Source of the DNA: Ectopseudomonas composti
Lineage (GTDB): Bacteria; Pseudomonadota; Gammaproteobacteria; Pseudomonadales; Pseudomonadaceae
NCBI GenBank assembly: GCA_946886245.1
Contig: CAMPIF010000171.1
Location: forward strand, 1-8,224
DNA length: 8,224 bases
Direction of reading: 5' to 3'
How positions within the stretch are numbered: position 1 is the stretch's first letter; every line of letters begins with the position of its first letter. Of this stretch, positions 11 through 8,224 are shown one piece after another. The translations under genes and the position numbers were made by a program. Below the pieces are notes generated by a model that searched no databases, was not told the origin of the DNA, and worked only from the letters and a program-made list of their open reading frames with translations.

Positions 11-769
11 ATGCCCCTGCATCTGCGCTTGCTGCTCCCTGCTCTGACCCTGGCCCTGGGCACCGGCCTGGGTTTCATCCACCCCCTCGGCCTGCTGCTG
101 GGCAGCGCATTCGTCATCGTCCTGCTGGCCGGACAATCGCGCCTGCCCAACTGGCTGTGGCTGCCTCTGATCCTGCTCGGCGCAATCGCCCTGGCGGCGC
201 ACCTCATACCCGGCTTCAGCCCCTGGCAGTTGTGGCAGCCACGTCTCATCAGCCACGATGCAGCTCCCTATGGCCTGCGCCTGTCCTGGGACAAACTGCT
301 GTTGGGCAGCGCCCTGCTCGCCTGGTGGCTGGGGCAGCCACGCAGCCCTGTGATTTCGCAGAAACATGCCTGGCTGACGTGCGTCGCCACCCTGCTGCTG
401 GTGCCGCTATTGGCCATGGCGCTGGGCCTGGTCACCTGGCAACCCAAATGGCCGCAGGGCCTGCTGCTGTGGCTGGCGGTCAATCTCGGCGTAGCGGTGC
501 TGGCGGAGGAATTGCTCTTTCGCGGCCTGCTCCAGACCGCCCTGATCAAGCGCCTGGGTATCTGGCCAGGCTTGCTGTTGACGGCTGGCCTGTTCGGTGC
601 GGCGCATCTGCCCTTCAGCACGCTATTCGCCGTGGTGGCGACCTGCGCGGGGCTGGGTTATGGGCTGGTCTTCCACTACAGCGGCCGCCTGAGCCTGGCC
701 ATCGCCCTGCACACAGCGGTCAATCTTCTGCATATATTGCTGTTGAGCTATCCGCTACGTCTGGCGTGA
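11..769 (+). CDS. CPBP family intramembrane metalloprotease
   Basis: A 252-residue, very hydrophobic inner-membrane protein with several predicted membrane segments, for example around residues 5-42, 47-65, 95-107, 122-142 and 150-170. The three CPBP (CAAX protease and bacteriocin-processing, Abi) motifs are present in order: EExxxR as EELLFR at 166-171, FxxxH as FGAAH at 195-199, and HxxxN at 234-238. In Rce1-type enzymes these Glu and His residues form the active site. Bacterial members are linked to peptide maturation or immunity, but the substrate here is unknown. It starts with a strong AGGAGG site. It is convergent with the next gene, and their 3' ends overlap by 50 bases. Nothing ties it to terpene metabolism, so it is probably an unrelated neighbour. 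The family is confident; the physiological role is not assigned. Confidence 0.88.
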   Translation: MPLHLRLLLPALTLALGTGLGFIHPLGLLLGSAFVIVLLAGQSRLPNWLWLPLILLGAIALAAHLIPGFSPWQLWQPRLISHDAAPYGLRLSWDKLLLGSALLAWWLGQPRSPVISQKHAWLTCVATLLLVPLLAMALGLVTWQPKWPQGLLLWLAVNLGVAVLAEELLFRGLLQTALIKRLGIWPGLLLTAGLFGAAHLPFSTLFAVVATCAGLGYGLVFHYSGRLSLAIALHTAVNLLHILLLSYPLRLA

Positions 770-1614: not shown

Positions 1615-2400
1615 TCACTCTACTGACACTTTGTTACCCAATGTCAGACGATAGCGCCCAAGTAGCTTGGTTAGTTCACCACTGGCCTGCAGCCGGTTCA
1701 ACAGTTCGGCAACTTCGGCCGGGCTCAGCGGCCCCTTGGGCCGCAGCAGCACCTGGTGGTGATAGAGCTGATCGGGGCGATCGGAAACCAGAAAATCGGG
1801 CAGCATTTCCGGGTGCCGATCCAGAAACAGCTCCAGATACGAGCGCGTCACCACGGCGATATCGACGCGTCGCGCCAGGAGCATGCGCAGGTTACTGTCG
1901 TGGGAATAGGTCAGCAGCGCGTTGAACTGCCGCGCGAGGTAGTCAGGGTCGGCGTCGAAACTGGCGAAGCCGTAGTGATAGCCGTTGTAGAGCGCCATGC
2001 GCTTGTCGCTGAAATTCTCGAAATAGTCCTGCCCACGCCCCGGCTCCGCCGCAGCGACATAGACTTCCGCATCGTCGATATCCAACCCCAGGGCCAGGTA
2101 TGACGTGCCCTGCCACCCCCAGCGACTGGACTCGAAGAACATCAGATCGAAGCGTCCGCTTTCAAGGTCGCGGTAACGGCGGGTCGCCGACGTTGGCACC
2201 AGCACGAAACGGTATTGCTGCTGCGACGCGTTGAGCGCGCGCAACAATTCGGGCACCAAACCTTGCGGATAGGATGATTCGGGCTTGTCCAGATAGGGCG
2301 GGAAGTGATAGCCGCCGACGCGTATTTCCTGCAGCGCAACGGCAGCAGGTACATGCAACAGCCACAGACAGCACAACAGGCAAAAGGCTAGTGCGCGCAA
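1615..2400 (-). CDS. Periplasmic solute-binding (SBP_bac_3-like) protein, copy 2
   Basis: A 261-residue paralogue of the gene at 720-1538, similar over its whole length, with roughly half the positions identical by eye. I prefer the TTG at 2400: AGAGG (2407-2411) lies six bases upstream, and the product opens with a compact signal peptide (MRALAFCLLCCLWLL, cleavage near AVA/LQ at 22-23). A longer reading from the TTG at 2442 lacks a ribosome site and puts 14 mostly polar, charged residues before the signal. Mature motifs are IRVGGYHFPPYLD (26-38), GYHYGFASF (140-148), SHDSNLRM (166-173) and RVDIAVVTRS (178-187). The fold suggests periplasmic ligand binding; the ligand is unknown. It lies downstream of atuR on the same strand, so read-through from atuR is possible. 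No transporter partner is visible. Confidence 0.83.
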   Translation of the reverse strand: MRALAFCLLCCLWLLHVPAAVALQEIRVGGYHFPPYLDKPESSYPQGLVPELLRALNASQQQYRFVLVPTSATRRYRDLESGRFDLMFFESSRWGWQGTSYLALGLDIDDAEVYVAAAEPGRGQDYFENFSDKRMALYNGYHYGFASFDADPDYLARQFNALLTYSHDSNLRMLLARRVDIAVVTRSYLELFLDRHPEMLPDFLVSDRPDQLYHHQVLLRPKGPLSPAEVAELLNRLQASGELTKLLGRYRLTLGNKVSVE

Positions 2401-2478
2401 ACTCGACCTCTCGTCACGGATGACAACGCGGGAGTACCCCAACGCCCGTGTTCGAGCCGAAAACCGGCAGATGCTCCT

Positions 2479-2508
2479 ATCCTAGCCTCAGGCTTCCTTG
2501 CATACCAA
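2479..2508 (-). promoter_or_regulatory. Weak candidate promoter for the binding-protein pair
   Basis: On the minus strand TTGGTA (2503-2508) and TAGGAT (2479-2484) are separated by 18 bases. Each matches four of six positions of the sigma-70 boxes. The site spans the 3' end of atuR and points at the gene starting at 2400. It could drive the two solute-binding genes independently of atuR. The match is modest and could be chance. Confidence 0.25.
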
Positions 2509-3111
2509 TGACAATGCTTCTTCGGCCAACTGATCCAGCGTCATGGGTCCCTGCGAACGGAACCAGGTATTGGTCCAGCTCAGCGCACCGGTGAGAAAAC
2601 GCCGCTGAATGAAGGGATCGCCCCTGAAGTAACCGGCCTCACGTGCCTCGCCCAGCACCGCCAACCAGATCTGCTCGTAGGTATCACGCAGGGCCAGTAC
2701 CTGTGCCTGCCCCTCTTGCGAAAGCGAACGCCATTCGTAGACCAGCACCGCCATGGCCTCGCCGGTACCGCCCATGATCGATTGCAGCTCGCAGCGGATC
2801 AGCGCCAGCAGCCGCTCGCGGGTGCCCTGCGCCTCGGCCAGTGCAGCGCGCATCAGGGCGGTGTTGTAAACGATGGTTTCCTCCATCACCGAGCGCAGGA
2901 TCTCGTCCTTGCTCTTGAAGTGGTGAAAGATGCTGCCCGACTGAATGCCGATGGCAGCGGCCAGATCGCGCACCGTGGTGCGCTCGTACCCCTTGCTGCG
3001 GAACAGGTGGGCGGCCATCTGCAACAGCTTGCCGCGGGCACTGTCCGGATCGGTTACCTGGCCGCTGGCGACCAGTTCCTGCATCACGGCCTGGGCTCTG
3101 TGTTCGTCCAC
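2488..3111 (-). CDS. atuR: TetR-family repressor of the atu cluster, AtuR
   Basis: A 207-residue TetR-type repressor. The GTG at 3111 is the likely start: GGGGAG lies eight bases upstream. An ATG at 3267 in the same frame would add 52 residues, read through the operator and promoter region, and has no ribosome site. The N-terminal DNA-binding domain covers about residues 24-70, with the helix-turn-helix TTVRDLAAAIGIQSGSIFHH at 45-64 followed by FKSKDEIL, a classic TetR signature. The rest is an all-helical ligand-binding and dimerisation domain. In P. aeruginosa AtuR represses the atu genes and binds inverted repeats in the atuR-atuA gap. An acyl-CoA-type terpenoid inducer is plausible but cannot be read from sequence. 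It is divergent from atuA, with a candidate operator over its own promoter suggesting autoregulation. Identification rests on fold plus context. Confidence 0.93.
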   Translation of the reverse strand: MDEHRAQAVMQELVASGQVTDPDSARGKLLQMAAHLFRSKGYERTTVRDLAAAIGIQSGSIFHHFKSKDEILRSVMEETIVYNTALMRAALAEAQGTRERLLALIRCELQSIMGGTGEAMAVLVYEWRSLSQEGQAQVLALRDTYEQIWLAVLGEAREAGYFRGDPFIQRRFLTGALSWTNTWFRSQGPMTLDQLAEEALSLVCKEA

Positions 3112-3117
3112 GCTGAC

Positions 3118-3125
3118 TTCTCCCC
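3118..3125 (-). promoter_or_regulatory. Ribosome binding site that fixes the AtuR start
   Basis: On the minus strand GGGGAGAA occupies these bases. GGGGAG ends eight bases before the GTG at 3111. No comparable site precedes the ATG at 3267 or the internal ATG at residue 10, so the GTG is the best-supported start. Confidence 0.7.
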
Positions 3126-3173
3126 TGATTGCCCTGCACGGCGATTGTTCTGATGAATTCTCTATGCTGCCGG

Positions 3174-3193
3174 CAAGTGCTTGTCTTGCTTGA
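3174..3193. promoter_or_regulatory. Degenerate third operator-like element
   Basis: CAAGTGCTTG (3174-3183) differs by one base from the palindromic core CAAGCGCTTG of the two strong sites. It is followed after one base by CTTGCTTG, which resembles the flank of the 3275-3290 site but is displaced by one base. It would lie at the start of the atuR transcript if the promoter at 3197-3225 is right. It may be a weaker auxiliary AtuR site. Confidence 0.4.
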
Positions 3194-3196
3194 CGA

Positions 3197-3225
3197 AATG
3201 TATGCGGCGAGAGCTGACCAAGCAA
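3197..3225 (-). promoter_or_regulatory. Candidate atuR promoter
   Basis: On the minus strand TTGCTT (3220-3225) and TACATT (3197-3202) are exactly 17 bases apart, a sigma-70-like arrangement. The -35 box lies inside the operator-like site 3218-3233, so a bound repressor would block it. Transcription would begin near 3190, giving a leader of about 80 bases. The -35 box is weak (three of six). Confidence 0.45.
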
Positions 3226-3233
3226 GCGCTTGG
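3218..3233. promoter_or_regulatory. AtuR operator-like site 1
   Basis: CCAAGCAAGCGCTTGG. It contains the 10-base perfect palindrome CAAGCGCTTG and also reads as CCAAGC-4-GCTTGG, an imperfect palindrome suited to a TetR dimer. It is the exact reverse complement of the site at 3275-3290. In P. aeruginosa AtuR binds two 13-base inverted repeats in the equivalent gap. I infer that these 16-base matches contain the equivalents; I have not aligned them. Confidence 0.8.
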
Positions 3234-3274
3234 GCGCATTTTTGGCCGAATTGGCGTCTTTCGCCACTTTTAAA

Positions 3275-3311: not shown

Positions 3312-3332
3312 ATGTGTGACGGGCCAATTCCA

Positions 3333-5150
3333 ATGAGCAAAACCGTACGCATCGGCTGCGCCTCCGCGTTCTGGGGCGACACCTCCACTGCTGCCGCCCA
3401 GCTGGTTCGCGGTGCCGAGCTGGATTACCTGGTGTTCGACTACCTGGCCGAGATCACCATGTCGATCATGGCCGGCGCCCGCATGAAGAAGCCTGACGAT
3501 GGCTACGCCCGTGATTTCGTCGAGGTGCTCACGCCGCTGCTGGGCGAGCTGGCGGCGAAGAAGATCCGCGTCATCAGCAACGCCGGCGGGGTCAACCCGA
3601 TGGCCTGCGCCACCGCCCTGAGCGCTGCCTGCGAGCAGGCCGGTGTGCAACTGAAGATCGCCGTGCTGCACGGCGACAACCTGCAACCCAGGCTTGGCGA
3701 GCTGGTCAAGGCCGGCACCCGCGAGATGTTCACAGGCGCCGCGCTGCCGCCCTTCTGCGTGTCGGTCAACGCCTACCTGGGCGCGCCGGGCATCGTCGCC
3801 GCGCTGGAACGGGGCGCCGACATCGTCATCACCGGCCGCGTGGTCGACAGCGCCGTGGTCAGCGCCGCCCTGGTGCACGAGTTCGGCTGGGCCTGGAGCG
3901 ATTACGACAAGCTGGCCCAGGCCGCGCTGGCCGGGCACATCATCGAATGCGGCGCGCAGTGCACCGGTGGCAATTTCACCGATTGGCGCGACGTAGCGGA
4001 TTACGAGCACATCGGTTTCCCCATCGTCGAAGTCGAAGGCGATGGCCGTTTCGTCGTGACCAAGCCCGAGGGCTCCGGCGGCCTGGTCACGCCTTTTACC
4101 GTTGGCGAGCAGATGCTCTACGAGATCGGCGACCCGCGCGCCTATCTGTTGCCGGACGTGATCTGCGACTTCACCCTGGTCGAACTGCGCCAGGTCGGCG
4201 ACAACCGCGTGCAGCTGCAGGGCGCGCGCGGCCTGCCGCCTAGCGATCAGTACAAGGTCAGCGCCACGCACCCGGACGGTTTTCGCTGCACTGCCAGCTT
4301 CCTGCTCGCGGGTATCGATGCCGTGGCCAAGGCCGAGCGGGTCGCCCAGGCGATCATCAACAAGACCGAAGAGATGTTCGCCGAGCGTGGCTGGGGCCGT
4401 TACCAGGAGGTCAGCGTCGAGCTGCTCGGCAGCGAGGCCACCTATGGCGCCCACGCTCAGCATCAGGACAGCCGCGAGGTGGTGGTGAAGATCGCCGCAC
4501 GCCATGCCAGGAAGGAGGCGCTGATCCTCTTCTCCCGCGAGATCGCCCAGGCCGCCACCGGCATGGCGCCGGGCCTGACCGGCATCGTCGGCGGGCGCCC
4601 TACCGTCTACCCGGTGATCCGCCTGTTCAGCTTCCTGGTGGACAAGAGTGCCTGCGCCTTGGGCGTCGAGATCGATGGCGAGCGCCAGCCGGTCGCCCTG
4701 CCCCAGGTCGATGCCTTCGACCCGGCTCAACTGCGCGCACCGGCCGCGCTGCCCGTGCCCATGGGCGAAGCGGACGCTACCGTACCGCTGATCCGCCTGG
4801 CCGTGGCGCGCTCCGGCGACAAGGGCAACCACAGCAATATCGGCGTGATGGCCAGAAAGCCCGAATACCTGGCGTGGATAGCCGCTGCGCTGACACCCGA
4901 AGCCGTGGCCAGCTGGATGGCACATACCCTGGATGCCGAGCAGGGTCGCGTCAGCCGCTGGTACCTGCCGGGCAGCCACAGCCTCAACTTTCTGCTGGAG
5001 AACGCGCTGGGCGGTGGTGGCGTCGCCAGCCTGCGCATCGACCCGCAGGGCAAGGCCTTCGCTCAGCAACTGCTGGAATTCCCGGTACCGGTGCCCGGGG
5101 CGCTGGCCGGGACCTTGACTGGTGCGCACGGCGCACCCTACACCCCGTAG
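3333..5150 (+). CDS. atuA: Acyclic terpene utilisation protein AtuA
   Basis: A 605-residue cytosolic protein of the AtuA family (DUF1446). It is required for growth on citronellol and geraniol in P. aeruginosa, but its reaction is not established. The start at ATG 3333 gives [16 protein letters not shown]; an ATG 21 bases upstream adds an unlikely seven residues, and neither has a strong ribosome site. The large N-terminal domain (about 1-450) has conserved-looking stretches such as [10 protein letters not shown] (81-90), [10 protein letters not shown] (167-176) and TGGNFTDW (211-218). A second domain (about 484-590) opens [19 protein letters not shown] and contains [20 protein letters not shown] (543-562), typical of the C-terminal AtuA-like domain. 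No membrane segment or signal peptide is visible. The last nine residues and the stop codon come from a REP repeat, so the natural C-terminus probably ended near T596. It is the first gene of the operon, 42 bases before atuB. Confidence 0.93.
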
Positions 5151-5192: not shown

Positions 5193-6062
5193 ATGAGCTA
5201 CGACTCCGTATTCAAACCCGGTCTTTTCAATGATCAGACCAGCCTGGTCACCGGCGGTGGCAGCGGCATCGGTCGCTGCGTGGCCCACGAGCTGGCCTAC
5301 CTGGGCGCCCATGTGGTGCTGGTCGGACGCAAGCAGGAAAAGCTGGAGAAGACCTGTGCCGAGATCATCGAAGACGGCGGCAGCGCCAGCTTTCAGGTCT
5401 GCGACATCCGCGACGAAGACGCGGTAAAGGCCATGATTGCTGCAGTGATCGAGGAGCGCGGGCGCATCCATCAACTGGTCAACAACGCCGGCGGCCAGTT
5501 CCCGGCGCCGCTGATCGGCATCAACCAGAAAGGCTTCGAGACCGTGGTGCGCACCAACCTGGTGGGCGGTTTTCTGGTGGCCAAGGAAGTCTTCCTGCAG
5601 AGCATGAGCAAGCACGGTGGCGCCATCGTCAACATGCTCGCCGACATGTGGGGCGGCATGCCCGGCATGGGTCACTCCGGTGCGGCGCGTGCCGGCATGG
5701 AGAACTTCACCAAGACCGCCGCCTACGAATGGGGCCACGCCGGTGTGCGGGTCAACGCCGTGGCGCCGGGCTGGATTGCCTCCAGCGGCATGGACACCTA
5801 CCCCGAGTCGATGAAGAACATGATCCGCAACCTCAAGGATCACGTGCCGCTGCAGCGCATCGGCAGCGAATCCGAGGTAGCCGCAGCCATCGTCTTCCTG
5901 CTCAGCCCCGGCGCCAACTTCATCAGCGGCAACTGCATCCGCATCGATGGCGCCGCCAGCCAGGGCACCCGCGCCTGGACGCTGGGCAAGGCGAGAAACA
6001 GCGAGCCCTACAACGGTTTCCATCGGGCCTATGTGCCCGATGTACTGAAAGATCAGGAGTAA
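5193..6062 (+). CDS. atuB: SDR-family oxidoreductase AtuB
   Basis: A 289-residue short-chain dehydrogenase/reductase. The dinucleotide-binding motif TGGGSGIG is at 20-27, CDIRD (70-74) lies at the cofactor-binding strand, and NNAG is at 97-100, followed by TNLVGGF at 121-127. The usual Ser and Tyr-x-x-x-Lys are absent: the region reads IVNMLAD (145-151) and then GHSGAARAGMENFTK (160-174), much like peroxisomal trans-2-enoyl-CoA reductase and related to dienoyl-CoA reductases. The tail VAPGW and the SG.CIRIDGA block (245-254) are standard SDR. AtuB is usually proposed to oxidise citronellol or citronellal, but these features leave room for an acyl-CoA reductase role. A weak AGGA site lies 11 bases before the ATG. 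atuC follows after four bases, so the two are probably translationally coupled. Confidence 0.92.
   Translation: MSYDSVFKPGLFNDQTSLVTGGGSGIGRCVAHELAYLGAHVVLVGRKQEKLEKTCAEIIEDGGSASFQVCDIRDEDAVKAMIAAVIEERGRIHQLVNNAGGQFPAPLIGINQKGFETVVRTNLVGGFLVAKEVFLQSMSKHGGAIVNMLADMWGGMPGMGHSGAARAGMENFTKTAAYEWGHAGVRVNAVAPGWIASSGMDTYPESMKNMIRNLKDHVPLQRIGSESEVAAAIVFLLSPGANFISGNCIRIDGAASQGTRAWTLGKARNSEPYNGFHRAYVPDVLKDQE
6055..6059 (+). promoter_or_regulatory. Ribosome binding site of atuC inside atuB
   Basis: AGGAG lies immediately before the atuB stop TAA (6060-6062) and seven bases before the atuC ATG at 6067. The arrangement supports translational coupling of the two genes. Confidence 0.7.
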
Positions 6063-6066
6063 GGCG

Positions 6067-7683
6067 ATGCCCGTGATCCAATCGGAAATCGATGTGCATG
6101 GCGACGCCTTCGCGCAGAACCGCGAGGCCATGCTGGCGGCCATCACGGCCTTCCGCGACGTCGAGCAGAAGGTGCAGGACAAGGCGCAGGAAGCCAAGGC
6201 CAAGTTCGAGAAGCGCGGCCAGTTGCTGCCGCGCGAACGCATCAACCTGCTGCTCGATGCCGGTGCGCCGTTCCTCGAGCTGGCCTCGCTGGCCGGCTAC
6301 AAGCTGCATGACGACAAGGACGGCAGCCAGGCCGGCGGCGGCCTGATCGCCGGCATCGGCTACATCGCCGGCGTGCGTTGCCTGGTAATTGCCAACAACA
6401 GCGCGATCAAGGGCGGCACCATCTCCCCCAGCGGCCTGAAGAAATCCCTGCGCCTGCAGCAGATCGCCTTCGAGAACAAACTGCCGGTGGTGACCCTGGC
6501 AGAAAGCGGCGGCGCCAACCTCAACTACGCCGCCGATATCTTCGTAGAAGGCGCGCGCGGCTTCGCCAACCAGGCGCGCATGTCCGCCATGGGCCTGCCG
6601 CAGATCACCGTGGTGCACGGCTCAAGCACCGCCGGCGGGGCCTATCAGCCCGGCCTGTCGGACTACGTGGTGGTGGTGCGCGGCAAGGCCAAGATGTTCC
6701 TCGCCGGCCCGCCACTGCTCAGGGCCGCCACCGGCGAGATCGCCACCGACGAGCAACTCGGCGGCGCCGAGATGCACGCCCAGGTCGCCGGCACCGCCGA
6801 GTACCTGGCCGAGAACGACGCCGACGGCGTGCGCCTGGCGCGTGAGATCCTCGCCATGCTGCCCTGGAACCAGCAGCTACCGGCGCGTCCGGCGAAAACC
6901 TGGCGCGAACCGCTGTACCCAGCCGAGGAACTGCTCGGCCTGGTACCGGCCGACGCCAAGAAGCCCTACGACGTGCGCGAGATCATCGCGCGCATCGCCG
7001 ATGGCTCGGCGTTCCTCGATTTCAAGAACGAGTTCGACAGCCAGACCGTCTGCGGCCACCTGCAGATCGAGGGCCTGGCCTGCGGCTTCATTGGCAACAA
7101 CGGCCCGATCACCCCGCAAGGTGCGGCCAAGGCAGCGCAGTTCATCCAGCTGTGCGAGCAGAGCAACACACCGATCCTGTTCTTCCACAACACCACCGGT
7201 TTCATGGTCGGTACCGAGTCGGAGCAGAACGGCGTGATCAAGCACGGCTCGAAGATGATCCAGGCCGTGGCCAACGCCACCGTGCCCAAGCTCACCATCG
7301 TCGTCGGCGGTTCCTACGGCGCCGGCAACTACGCCATGTGCGGCCGAGGCCTCGACCCGCGCTTCATCTTCGCCTGGCCCAACAGCAAGACCGCCGTGAT
7401 GGGTGGTGCCCAGGCCGGCAAGGTGCTGCGCATCGTCACCGAGGACAAGCACGCCAAGGAAGGCAAGGAAGCCGATCCGAAAATGCTCGACATGCTCGAG
7501 CAAGTCACCGCGCAGAAGCTCGACAGCCAGTCCACCGCGCTGTACGGCACCGCCAGCCTGTGGGACGACGGCCTGATCGACCCGCGTGATACGCGCAAGC
7601 TGCTGGGCTTCTTGCTGGACATCTGTGCCGAGGCCAACCTGCGTCCATTGAAGAAAAGCAGCTTCGGCGTGGCGCGATTCTGA
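6067..7683 (+). CDS. atuC: Geranyl-CoA carboxylase carboxyltransferase (beta) subunit AtuC
   Basis: A 538-residue full-length carboxyltransferase of the biotin-dependent acyl-CoA carboxylase family, the usual size. It transfers carboxyl from biotin on the alpha subunit (AtuF, expected beyond the window) to geranyl-CoA, giving isohexenylglutaconyl-CoA. The N-terminal crotonase-fold half contains AGGGLIAGIGYIAG (89-102), NNSAIKGGTISPSGLKKSLR (110-129), LAESGGANL (144-152), STAGGAYQPGLSD (187-199) and FLAGPPLL-ATGE (211-224). The C-terminal half contains TPQGAAKAAQFI (349-360), the acyl-site region LFFHNTTGFMVGTE (371-384), GGSYGAGNYAMCGR (414-427) and MGGAQAGKVL (445-454). The relative LiuB (methylcrotonyl-CoA carboxylase) is the main alternative, but adjacency to atuR, atuA and atuB decides for AtuC. 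A good AGGAG site lies seven bases upstream. Confidence 0.94.
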   Translation: MPVIQSEIDVHGDAFAQNREAMLAAITAFRDVEQKVQDKAQEAKAKFEKRGQLLPRERINLLLDAGAPFLELASLAGYKLHDDKDGSQAGGGLIAGIGYIAGVRCLVIANNSAIKGGTISPSGLKKSLRLQQIAFENKLPVVTLAESGGANLNYAADIFVEGARGFANQARMSAMGLPQITVVHGSSTAGGAYQPGLSDYVVVVRGKAKMFLAGPPLLRAATGEIATDEQLGGAEMHAQVAGTAEYLAENDADGVRLAREILAMLPWNQQLPARPAKTWREPLYPAEELLGLVPADAKKPYDVREIIARIADGSAFLDFKNEFDSQTVCGHLQIEGLACGFIGNNGPITPQGAAKAAQFIQLCEQSNTPILFFHNTTGFMVGTESEQNGVIKHGSKMIQAVANATVPKLTIVVGGSYGAGNYAMCGRGLDPRFIFAWPNSKTAVMGGAQAGKVLRIVTEDKHAKEGKEADPKMLDMLEQVTAQKLDSQSTALYGTASLWDDGLIDPRDTRKLLGFLLDICAEANLRPLKKSSFGVARF

Positions 7684-7685
7684 CC

Positions 7686-7735
7686 GTAGGGCGGGTGAAA
7701 CCCGCAAAGCATGCGGCGGGTTTCACCCGCCCTAC
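7686..7735. repeat. REP doublet between atuC and atuD
   Basis: Two perfectly complementary 20-base arms (7686-7705 and 7716-7735) flank a ten-base loop, AAAGCATGCG. Each arm is a REP-like unit: the head GTAG, one G, then GCGGGT-GAA-ACCCGC, itself a small hairpin. Here the GTAG heads are at the outer ends, opposite to the doublet after atuA, and the stem sequence differs, so it is probably another REP family. It starts two bases after the atuC stop. It could act as an mRNA hairpin separating atuC from atuD; no T-run follows, so it is not an obvious terminator. An ATG within it (7711) is in frame with atuD but is not a credible start. Confidence 0.85.
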
Positions 7736-7750
7736 AGACCCATTCGATAC

Positions 7751-7764: not shown

Positions 7765-8224
7765 ATGATCTTCACTCAGGAACACGAAGAACTCCGCCGT
7801 ACCGTCCGCAACTTCGTCGACAAGGACATCAATCCACACGTCGATGAGTGGGAAAAGGAAGGCCGCTTCCCCATCCACGACATCTTCAGGAAGGCCGGCG
7901 AGCTGGGCCTGCTGGGCATCTCCAAACCGGAGAAATTCGGCGGCATGGGCCTGGATTACAGCTATTCGATCGTTGCTGCCGAAGAGTTCGGCACCATTCA
8001 CTGCGGCGGCATCCCCATGTCCATCGGCGTGCAGACCGACATGTGCACCCCGGCCCTGGCGCGCTTCGGCTCCGATGAGCTGCGCGAAGCGTTCCTGCGC
8101 CCGGCCATTACTGGCGAAATGGTCGGCTGCATCGGCGTCTCCGAAGTCGGTGCCGGCTCCGACGTGGCCGGGATGAAAACCAAAGCGCGCTAGGACGGCG
8201 ACGACTATGTGATCCACGGCAGCA
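7765..8224 (+). pseudogene. atuD: Citronellyl-CoA dehydrogenase AtuD, in-frame stop, cut by window edge
   Basis: The 5' part of an acyl-CoA dehydrogenase gene. In P. aeruginosa AtuD converts citronellyl-CoA to geranyl-CoA with FAD. The first 142 residues are intact: MIFTQEHEELRRTVRNFVDK, the N-terminal helical domain with LGISKPEKFGGMGLDY (50-65), then the start of the beta domain with the family signature IGVSEVGAGSDVAG (123-136). Codon 143 is TAG (8191-8193). The same frame then continues DGDDYVIHGS to the window end, exactly what follows in this family, so the stop interrupts a conserved gene. A product ending here lacks most of the beta domain and the C-terminal helical domain with the catalytic Glu, and should be inactive. 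It may be a true nonsense mutation, a sequencing error or, less likely, a suppressed codon. The family normally has about 380-390 residues; the rest lies outside the window. Confidence 0.85.

Follow-up and report, generated by a model that had tools for sequence, protein, structure and literature searches.

Does the in-frame TAG close to the end of this stretch of DNA mark a catabolic gene that has been inactivated in the strain, a stop codon that is read through, a naturally short enzyme, or a fault in the sequence itself? The window, by which we mean the whole stretch that was analysed (8,224 nucleotides), was placed in the Pseudomonas oleovorans/mendocina group, and the closest genome among those compared is that of Pseudomonas sp. 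8O (L001), with 94.9% identity across the whole window. As judged from sequence comparisons, the TAG most likely (probability of about 0.7) arose as an error where the sequence end is chimeric or has poor support, and would be absent from the gene of the organism.

The atu cluster and the TAG in atuD

The features of the window that bear on this question, together with their neighbours, are as follows.

11-769, plus strand: CPBP-type membrane protease gene (ORF list, Pfam)
720-1580 and 1615-2442, minus strand: two adjacent solute-binding-like protein genes (weak Pfam matches to SBP_bac_3 and Phosphonate-bd)
2488..3267, minus strand: TetR-family regulator gene, divergent from atuA (ORF list, Pfam)
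3312..5150, plus strand: atuA, open frame (Pfam AtuA and AtuA ferredoxin-like domain)
5193..6062, plus strand: atuB-like short-chain dehydrogenase gene, open frame (ORF list, Pfam)
6067..7683, plus strand: atuC-like carboxyltransferase gene (geranyl-CoA carboxylase beta subunit), open frame (ORF list, Pfam)
7686..7735, strand not assigned: REP-like inverted repeat with perfect 20-nt arms and a 10-nt loop, in the gap from atuC to atuD
7765..8193, plus strand: 5' part of atuD (citronellyl-CoA dehydrogenase), 142 codons and the TAG, encoding the N-terminal domain and no more than the beginning of the middle one
8191..8193, plus strand: in-frame TAG at codon 143, without counterpart in any relative examined
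8172..8224, plus strand: anomalous window end, with private changes at 8172, 8173, 8178, 8183, 8191 and 8215, plus 8184

The initial annotation had placed a TAG at codon 143 of an atuD frame beginning at the ATG at 7765, followed by DGDDYVIHGS, and the window sequence and its translation bear this out. Translation from 7765 gives 142 residues, the stop at 8191-8193 and then those ten residues up to the end of the window, with only 31 bases between the TAG and the last letter; the open reading frame listed from 7711 closes at the same codon. The start at 7765 is backed by relatives, as an ATG is found at the matching place in 80 of 80 loci. The assignment to atuD also holds, with a match to the N-terminal domain Acyl-CoA_dh_N (PF02771) over residues 4-118 (E 3.1e-35) and 98% identity of the 142 residues to the Pseudomonas sp. 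8O copy.

The genetic setting agrees with this identity. Genes for AtuA, a short-chain dehydrogenase and a carboxyltransferase lie upstream of atuD, and the order atuA-B-C-D, together with a TetR gene (presumably AtuR) that faces away from atuA, is that of the Pseudomonas atuABCDEFGH cluster. Unlike the AtuD of that cluster, which has no TAG at codon 143, the window gene carries the stop and is cut at the window end. Further upstream, the two solute-binding-like genes are perhaps an old duplication. The repeat between atuC and atuD is called REP-like because 45 of 49 match rows in the genome of the nearest relative, with most places listed on both strands, cover the element; the region 7684-7740 has a predicted folding energy of -44.1 kcal/mol (z -8.9 compared to shuffles). 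Plasmid records gave only three weak matches to the window, at 60-80% identity over no more than 10% of its length, and phage records gave none.

Codon 143 among relatives

Alignment with the AtuD of relatives had been suggested as a check on the stop, and it shows the TAG to be unique to the window among everything examined. A scan of genome contigs returned 401 relatives, and in the best 80 of these no locus has a stop at codon 143. The residue there is Lys in 78, Gln in one and Arg in one, which is the class of residue that the initial annotation had expected, and the codons are AAG (63), AAA (15), CAA (1) and AGG (1). Frames of 385-388 amino acids are found in 78 of the 80 loci, and the remaining two run without a stop to the end of their contigs. 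Among 298 searched genomes of the genus, 246 gave a match, weak ones counted, and 30 loci taken from them carry AAG (29) or AAA (1), in a set that overlaps with the first 80. In the widest comparison, 118 of 124 loci were within limits of at most 90 upstream and at most 22 tail differences, six were dropped, and 105 distinct sequences were obtained; none of these orthologues has a stop anywhere in codons 1-153, and so none at codon 143.

These counts bear on three of the alternatives. A genuine nonsense mutation in the atuD of the strain, which may lie in a short tract that is recombinant or decaying, is conceivable though unlikely. It draws on the earlier remark that one base change would make this stop, which is correct in that the codon of nearly all relatives is one base from TAG, and on an upstream frame that is open; the lack of any stop in the same 153 codons of the 105 orthologues speaks against it. 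Read-through of the TAG by amber suppression or recoding, which would yield a full-length AtuD, could be argued from the ten codons 3' of the stop, as these retain the sequence of the family. However, ten conserved codons are equally expected from an error or from a recent mutation, and TAG at this codon is present in no relative examined, so read-through is very improbable.

The third of these alternatives, that a shorter, functional AtuD of 142 residues occurs naturally, must be considered extremely unlikely. A database search for proteins near 142 amino acids in length returned 1037 hits at E <= 0.001, and among the best 120 are two more distant proteins (P0081 and P0110) of 142 amino acids and 64-67% identity that end at the matching Arg142, though both may just be cut by contig ends. 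Full-length AtuD of the nearest relative contains N-terminal, middle (122-217) and C-terminal (229-375) domains, of which the latter two lie mostly or wholly beyond residue 142, and 119 acyl-CoA dehydrogenase-like sequences of solved structures match this intact protein. A complete AtuD would be expected to have middle and C-terminal domains and about 386 residues. The window frame stops after residue 142 and the window itself ends at 8224; each of the 78 relatives whose frame is complete reaches 385-388 amino acids.

Unusual changes in the last 53 bases

Private changes were defined as those found in the window only, compared to 11 near relatives that align along its full length. There are 53 such sites, six of them in the last 53 bases, and this segment (8172-8224) is the window maximum of private changes per 53 nt, the best elsewhere being three; the first 53 nt of the window contain none. 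From 8172 to the end, 6 of 44 otherwise conserved sites are private, compared to 47 of 6129 before it (odds ratio 20, Fisher p 1.6e-6, a value that is only a guide because the region was picked after looking at the data). Near the start of this segment, all of 16 near relatives share a base at 8183 that the window lacks, and they carry C or T at 8184; at 8169 the window is unlike 15 of the 16 and the same as the remaining one (L003).

The changes in the tail also differ in kind from those that precede them. Before 8172, the private changes in atuD are distributed over the three codon positions as 0/0/5, all of them in the third position, and one of these, at 7827, converts Glu21 to Asp. In the tail the distribution is 3/1/2, as if unfiltered by selection. 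Three tail bases, all within the last 41 bases and all protein-changing, are present in none of the 105 orthologues: 8184 A, 8191 T and 8215 C, which produce Lys140, the stop and His151 in place of the Thr, Lys and Asn that predominate in relatives. Across the 460 bases of atuD in the window, singletons relative to the 105 orthologues thus number zero in the first 407 and three in the last 53, an excess of unsupported bases that is confined to the window end; when only the first 80 relatives are considered, 7827 is likewise unmatched. As a control, singletons were counted in the last 53 bases of each of the 105 orthologues, giving one in nine sequences, zero in 96 and a maximum of one, a comparison that is somewhat generous to an artefact, since the near-identical sisters of many orthologues lower their singleton counts.

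Clustering alone is not proof of a faulty end. In four of the 11 relatives, too, the locus contains 53-nt clusters of private changes that are about as dense or denser (L001 with 5, L003 with 5, L002 with 6 and L013 with 10), which means that the tail may be a real recombinant tract and lends the nonsense allele some support. Contig ends of relatives are, in addition, mostly not error-rich. Thirteen such ends were tried, six of which were not scorable, and the seven that were scored have zero private changes per 53 nt in three cases, two in two cases, four in one and 11 in one; the end with four is preceded by 15 in the adjacent 407 bases, and the end with 11 had a single relative for comparison. 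On the same test the window end has five private changes, with three upstream, and the window start has zero. The window resembles contig-end errors or chimeric joins in that unsupported protein-changing bases cluster in its last bases only, and departs from the other contig ends tested, which are mostly without such clusters.

What argues for a bad or chimeric end over an isolated nonsense mutation is the burst of changes at the window end together with the two unique bases beside the TAG. A single real nonsense mutation should be a solitary change, and a gene that is dead should gather changes over its whole length; an ordinary upstream frame followed by a terminal burst fits neither expectation. 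The visible atuD is like nonsense pseudogenes of catabolic genes in having a single in-frame stop in an otherwise open frame, but unlike them its remainder is without clear sign of relaxed selection: under relaxed selection changes would be spread gene-wide, whereas the upstream private changes are in third positions only, with a single one altering the protein. This argument would not apply to a mutation of very recent date. The stop also falls together with two other unique bases at the window end, which weighs against a genuine allele. The initial annotation was correct in seeing the TAG; what it could not reveal is that the codon belongs to a group of odd substitutions packed into the last 53 bases. 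A loss of citronellyl-CoA dehydrogenation by the strain, which it had expected of a real stop, is not favoured, given the raised private rate from 8172 on and the singletons at 8184 and 8215 on either side of the stop.

Possible sources of the tail and the consequences of a real stop

In order to be explained by transfer from another lineage, the tail would need a donor, and no single one was found among the genomes and proteins searched. Several of its alleles (8172 G, 8173 A, 8178 A and 8183 A) are present in other, more distant Pseudomonas, as recombination would give, and this counts in favour of a genuine allele. A 75-nt tail query matched 13 of 369 genomes of the class, at no more than 86% over most of the query, with pieces of 26-31 nt at 87-92%, and 283 of 398 genomes of the genus, the best among the matches listed being 93%. 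The genome closest in the tail among the matches listed (L119) has 6 differences in these 75 nt and 56 in the 385 upstream; it has three of seven tail alleles in common with the window, all from the set 8172, 8173, 8178 and 8183, and is without 8184 A, 8191 T and 8215 C.

Searches at the protein level gave a similar picture. In a search with residues 114-153, none of the best 120 of 2365 proteins has the residue set of the tail, and neither Met137 with Lys140 nor His151 was found in the 119 of these 120 that could be scored. The words GMKTK, MKTKA, KTKAR, YVIHG and VIHGS occur in none of 238 proteins (the best 120 of each of two protein searches), which indicates that there is no coherent donor among the proteins listed. 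The tail pattern, exact but for two N, had no match in viral_contigs or in 82 loci. Two other possible sources were rejected. A paralogue in the nearest genome has only 8178 in common with the tail, and for local template switching there is no same-strand match of at least 10 bases in the window outside 8100-8224, while the one 10-base match on the opposite strand does not account for the tract.

From these comparisons, the tail is possibly a patchwork in which alleles known from other Pseudomonas stand beside unique bases, and the stretch 8169-8184, where the window leaves its own species group for other Pseudomonas alleles, may reflect either real recombination or the join of a chimera. A contig end that is chimeric or has poor support fits the foreign alleles as well as the unique bases. 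Under this preferred explanation, the window, whose odd length of 8,224 nucleotides would fit a metagenome contig, is taken to end at a contig end, and its last 53 bases would be poorly supported or chimeric: the upstream sequence tracks the oleovorans/mendocina group closely, private changes then pile up, and the three bases found in no orthologue examined would be errors or products of a chimeric join, one of which happens to create the TAG. The real atuD would then encode an ordinary full-length acyl-CoA dehydrogenase within an ordinary atu cluster. As a caution for annotation, a striking gene-inactivating stop can stem from the last bases of a sequence, and it is the neighbourhood of the stop compared to orthologues, not the stop alone, that exposes the likely artefact.

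If the stop is nonetheless real, the product would consist of the N-terminal domain and the beginning of the middle one. In acyl-CoA dehydrogenases, the flavin site and the catalytic base reside largely in the parts that are missing here, and the 142-residue product is on that account predicted to be inactive. Use of citronellol would be lost or weakened, while geraniol would still enter at geranyl-CoA, so that the strain would be a simple knockout, made by nature, in which the use of citronellol is separated from that of geraniol. The full form of this scenario, in which a natural strain of the oleovorans/mendocina group carries a recent atuD null allele, made by a short recombinant tract and a nonsense change, and uses geraniol and not citronellol, is doubtful. 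Among the consulted rows of a published table that concern Thauera linaloolentis, an organism whose route passes through geraniol and geranial, none is for AtuD (PMC4847356); these rows are compatible with a geraniol bypass and are no test of it.

Finally, the initial annotation had raised polarity of the stop on atuE and atuF. In the nearest relative, genes for an enoyl-CoA hydratase (atuE-like), a biotin carboxylase (atuF-like) and a short-chain dehydrogenase do lie 3' of atuD, which makes polarity on the first two a sensible worry, one that matters only if the stop is real. As a separate observation on the same genome, an autotransporter gene (L001:15175-17769) follows the atuG-like gene, in place of the acyl-CoA synthetase (atuH) gene.
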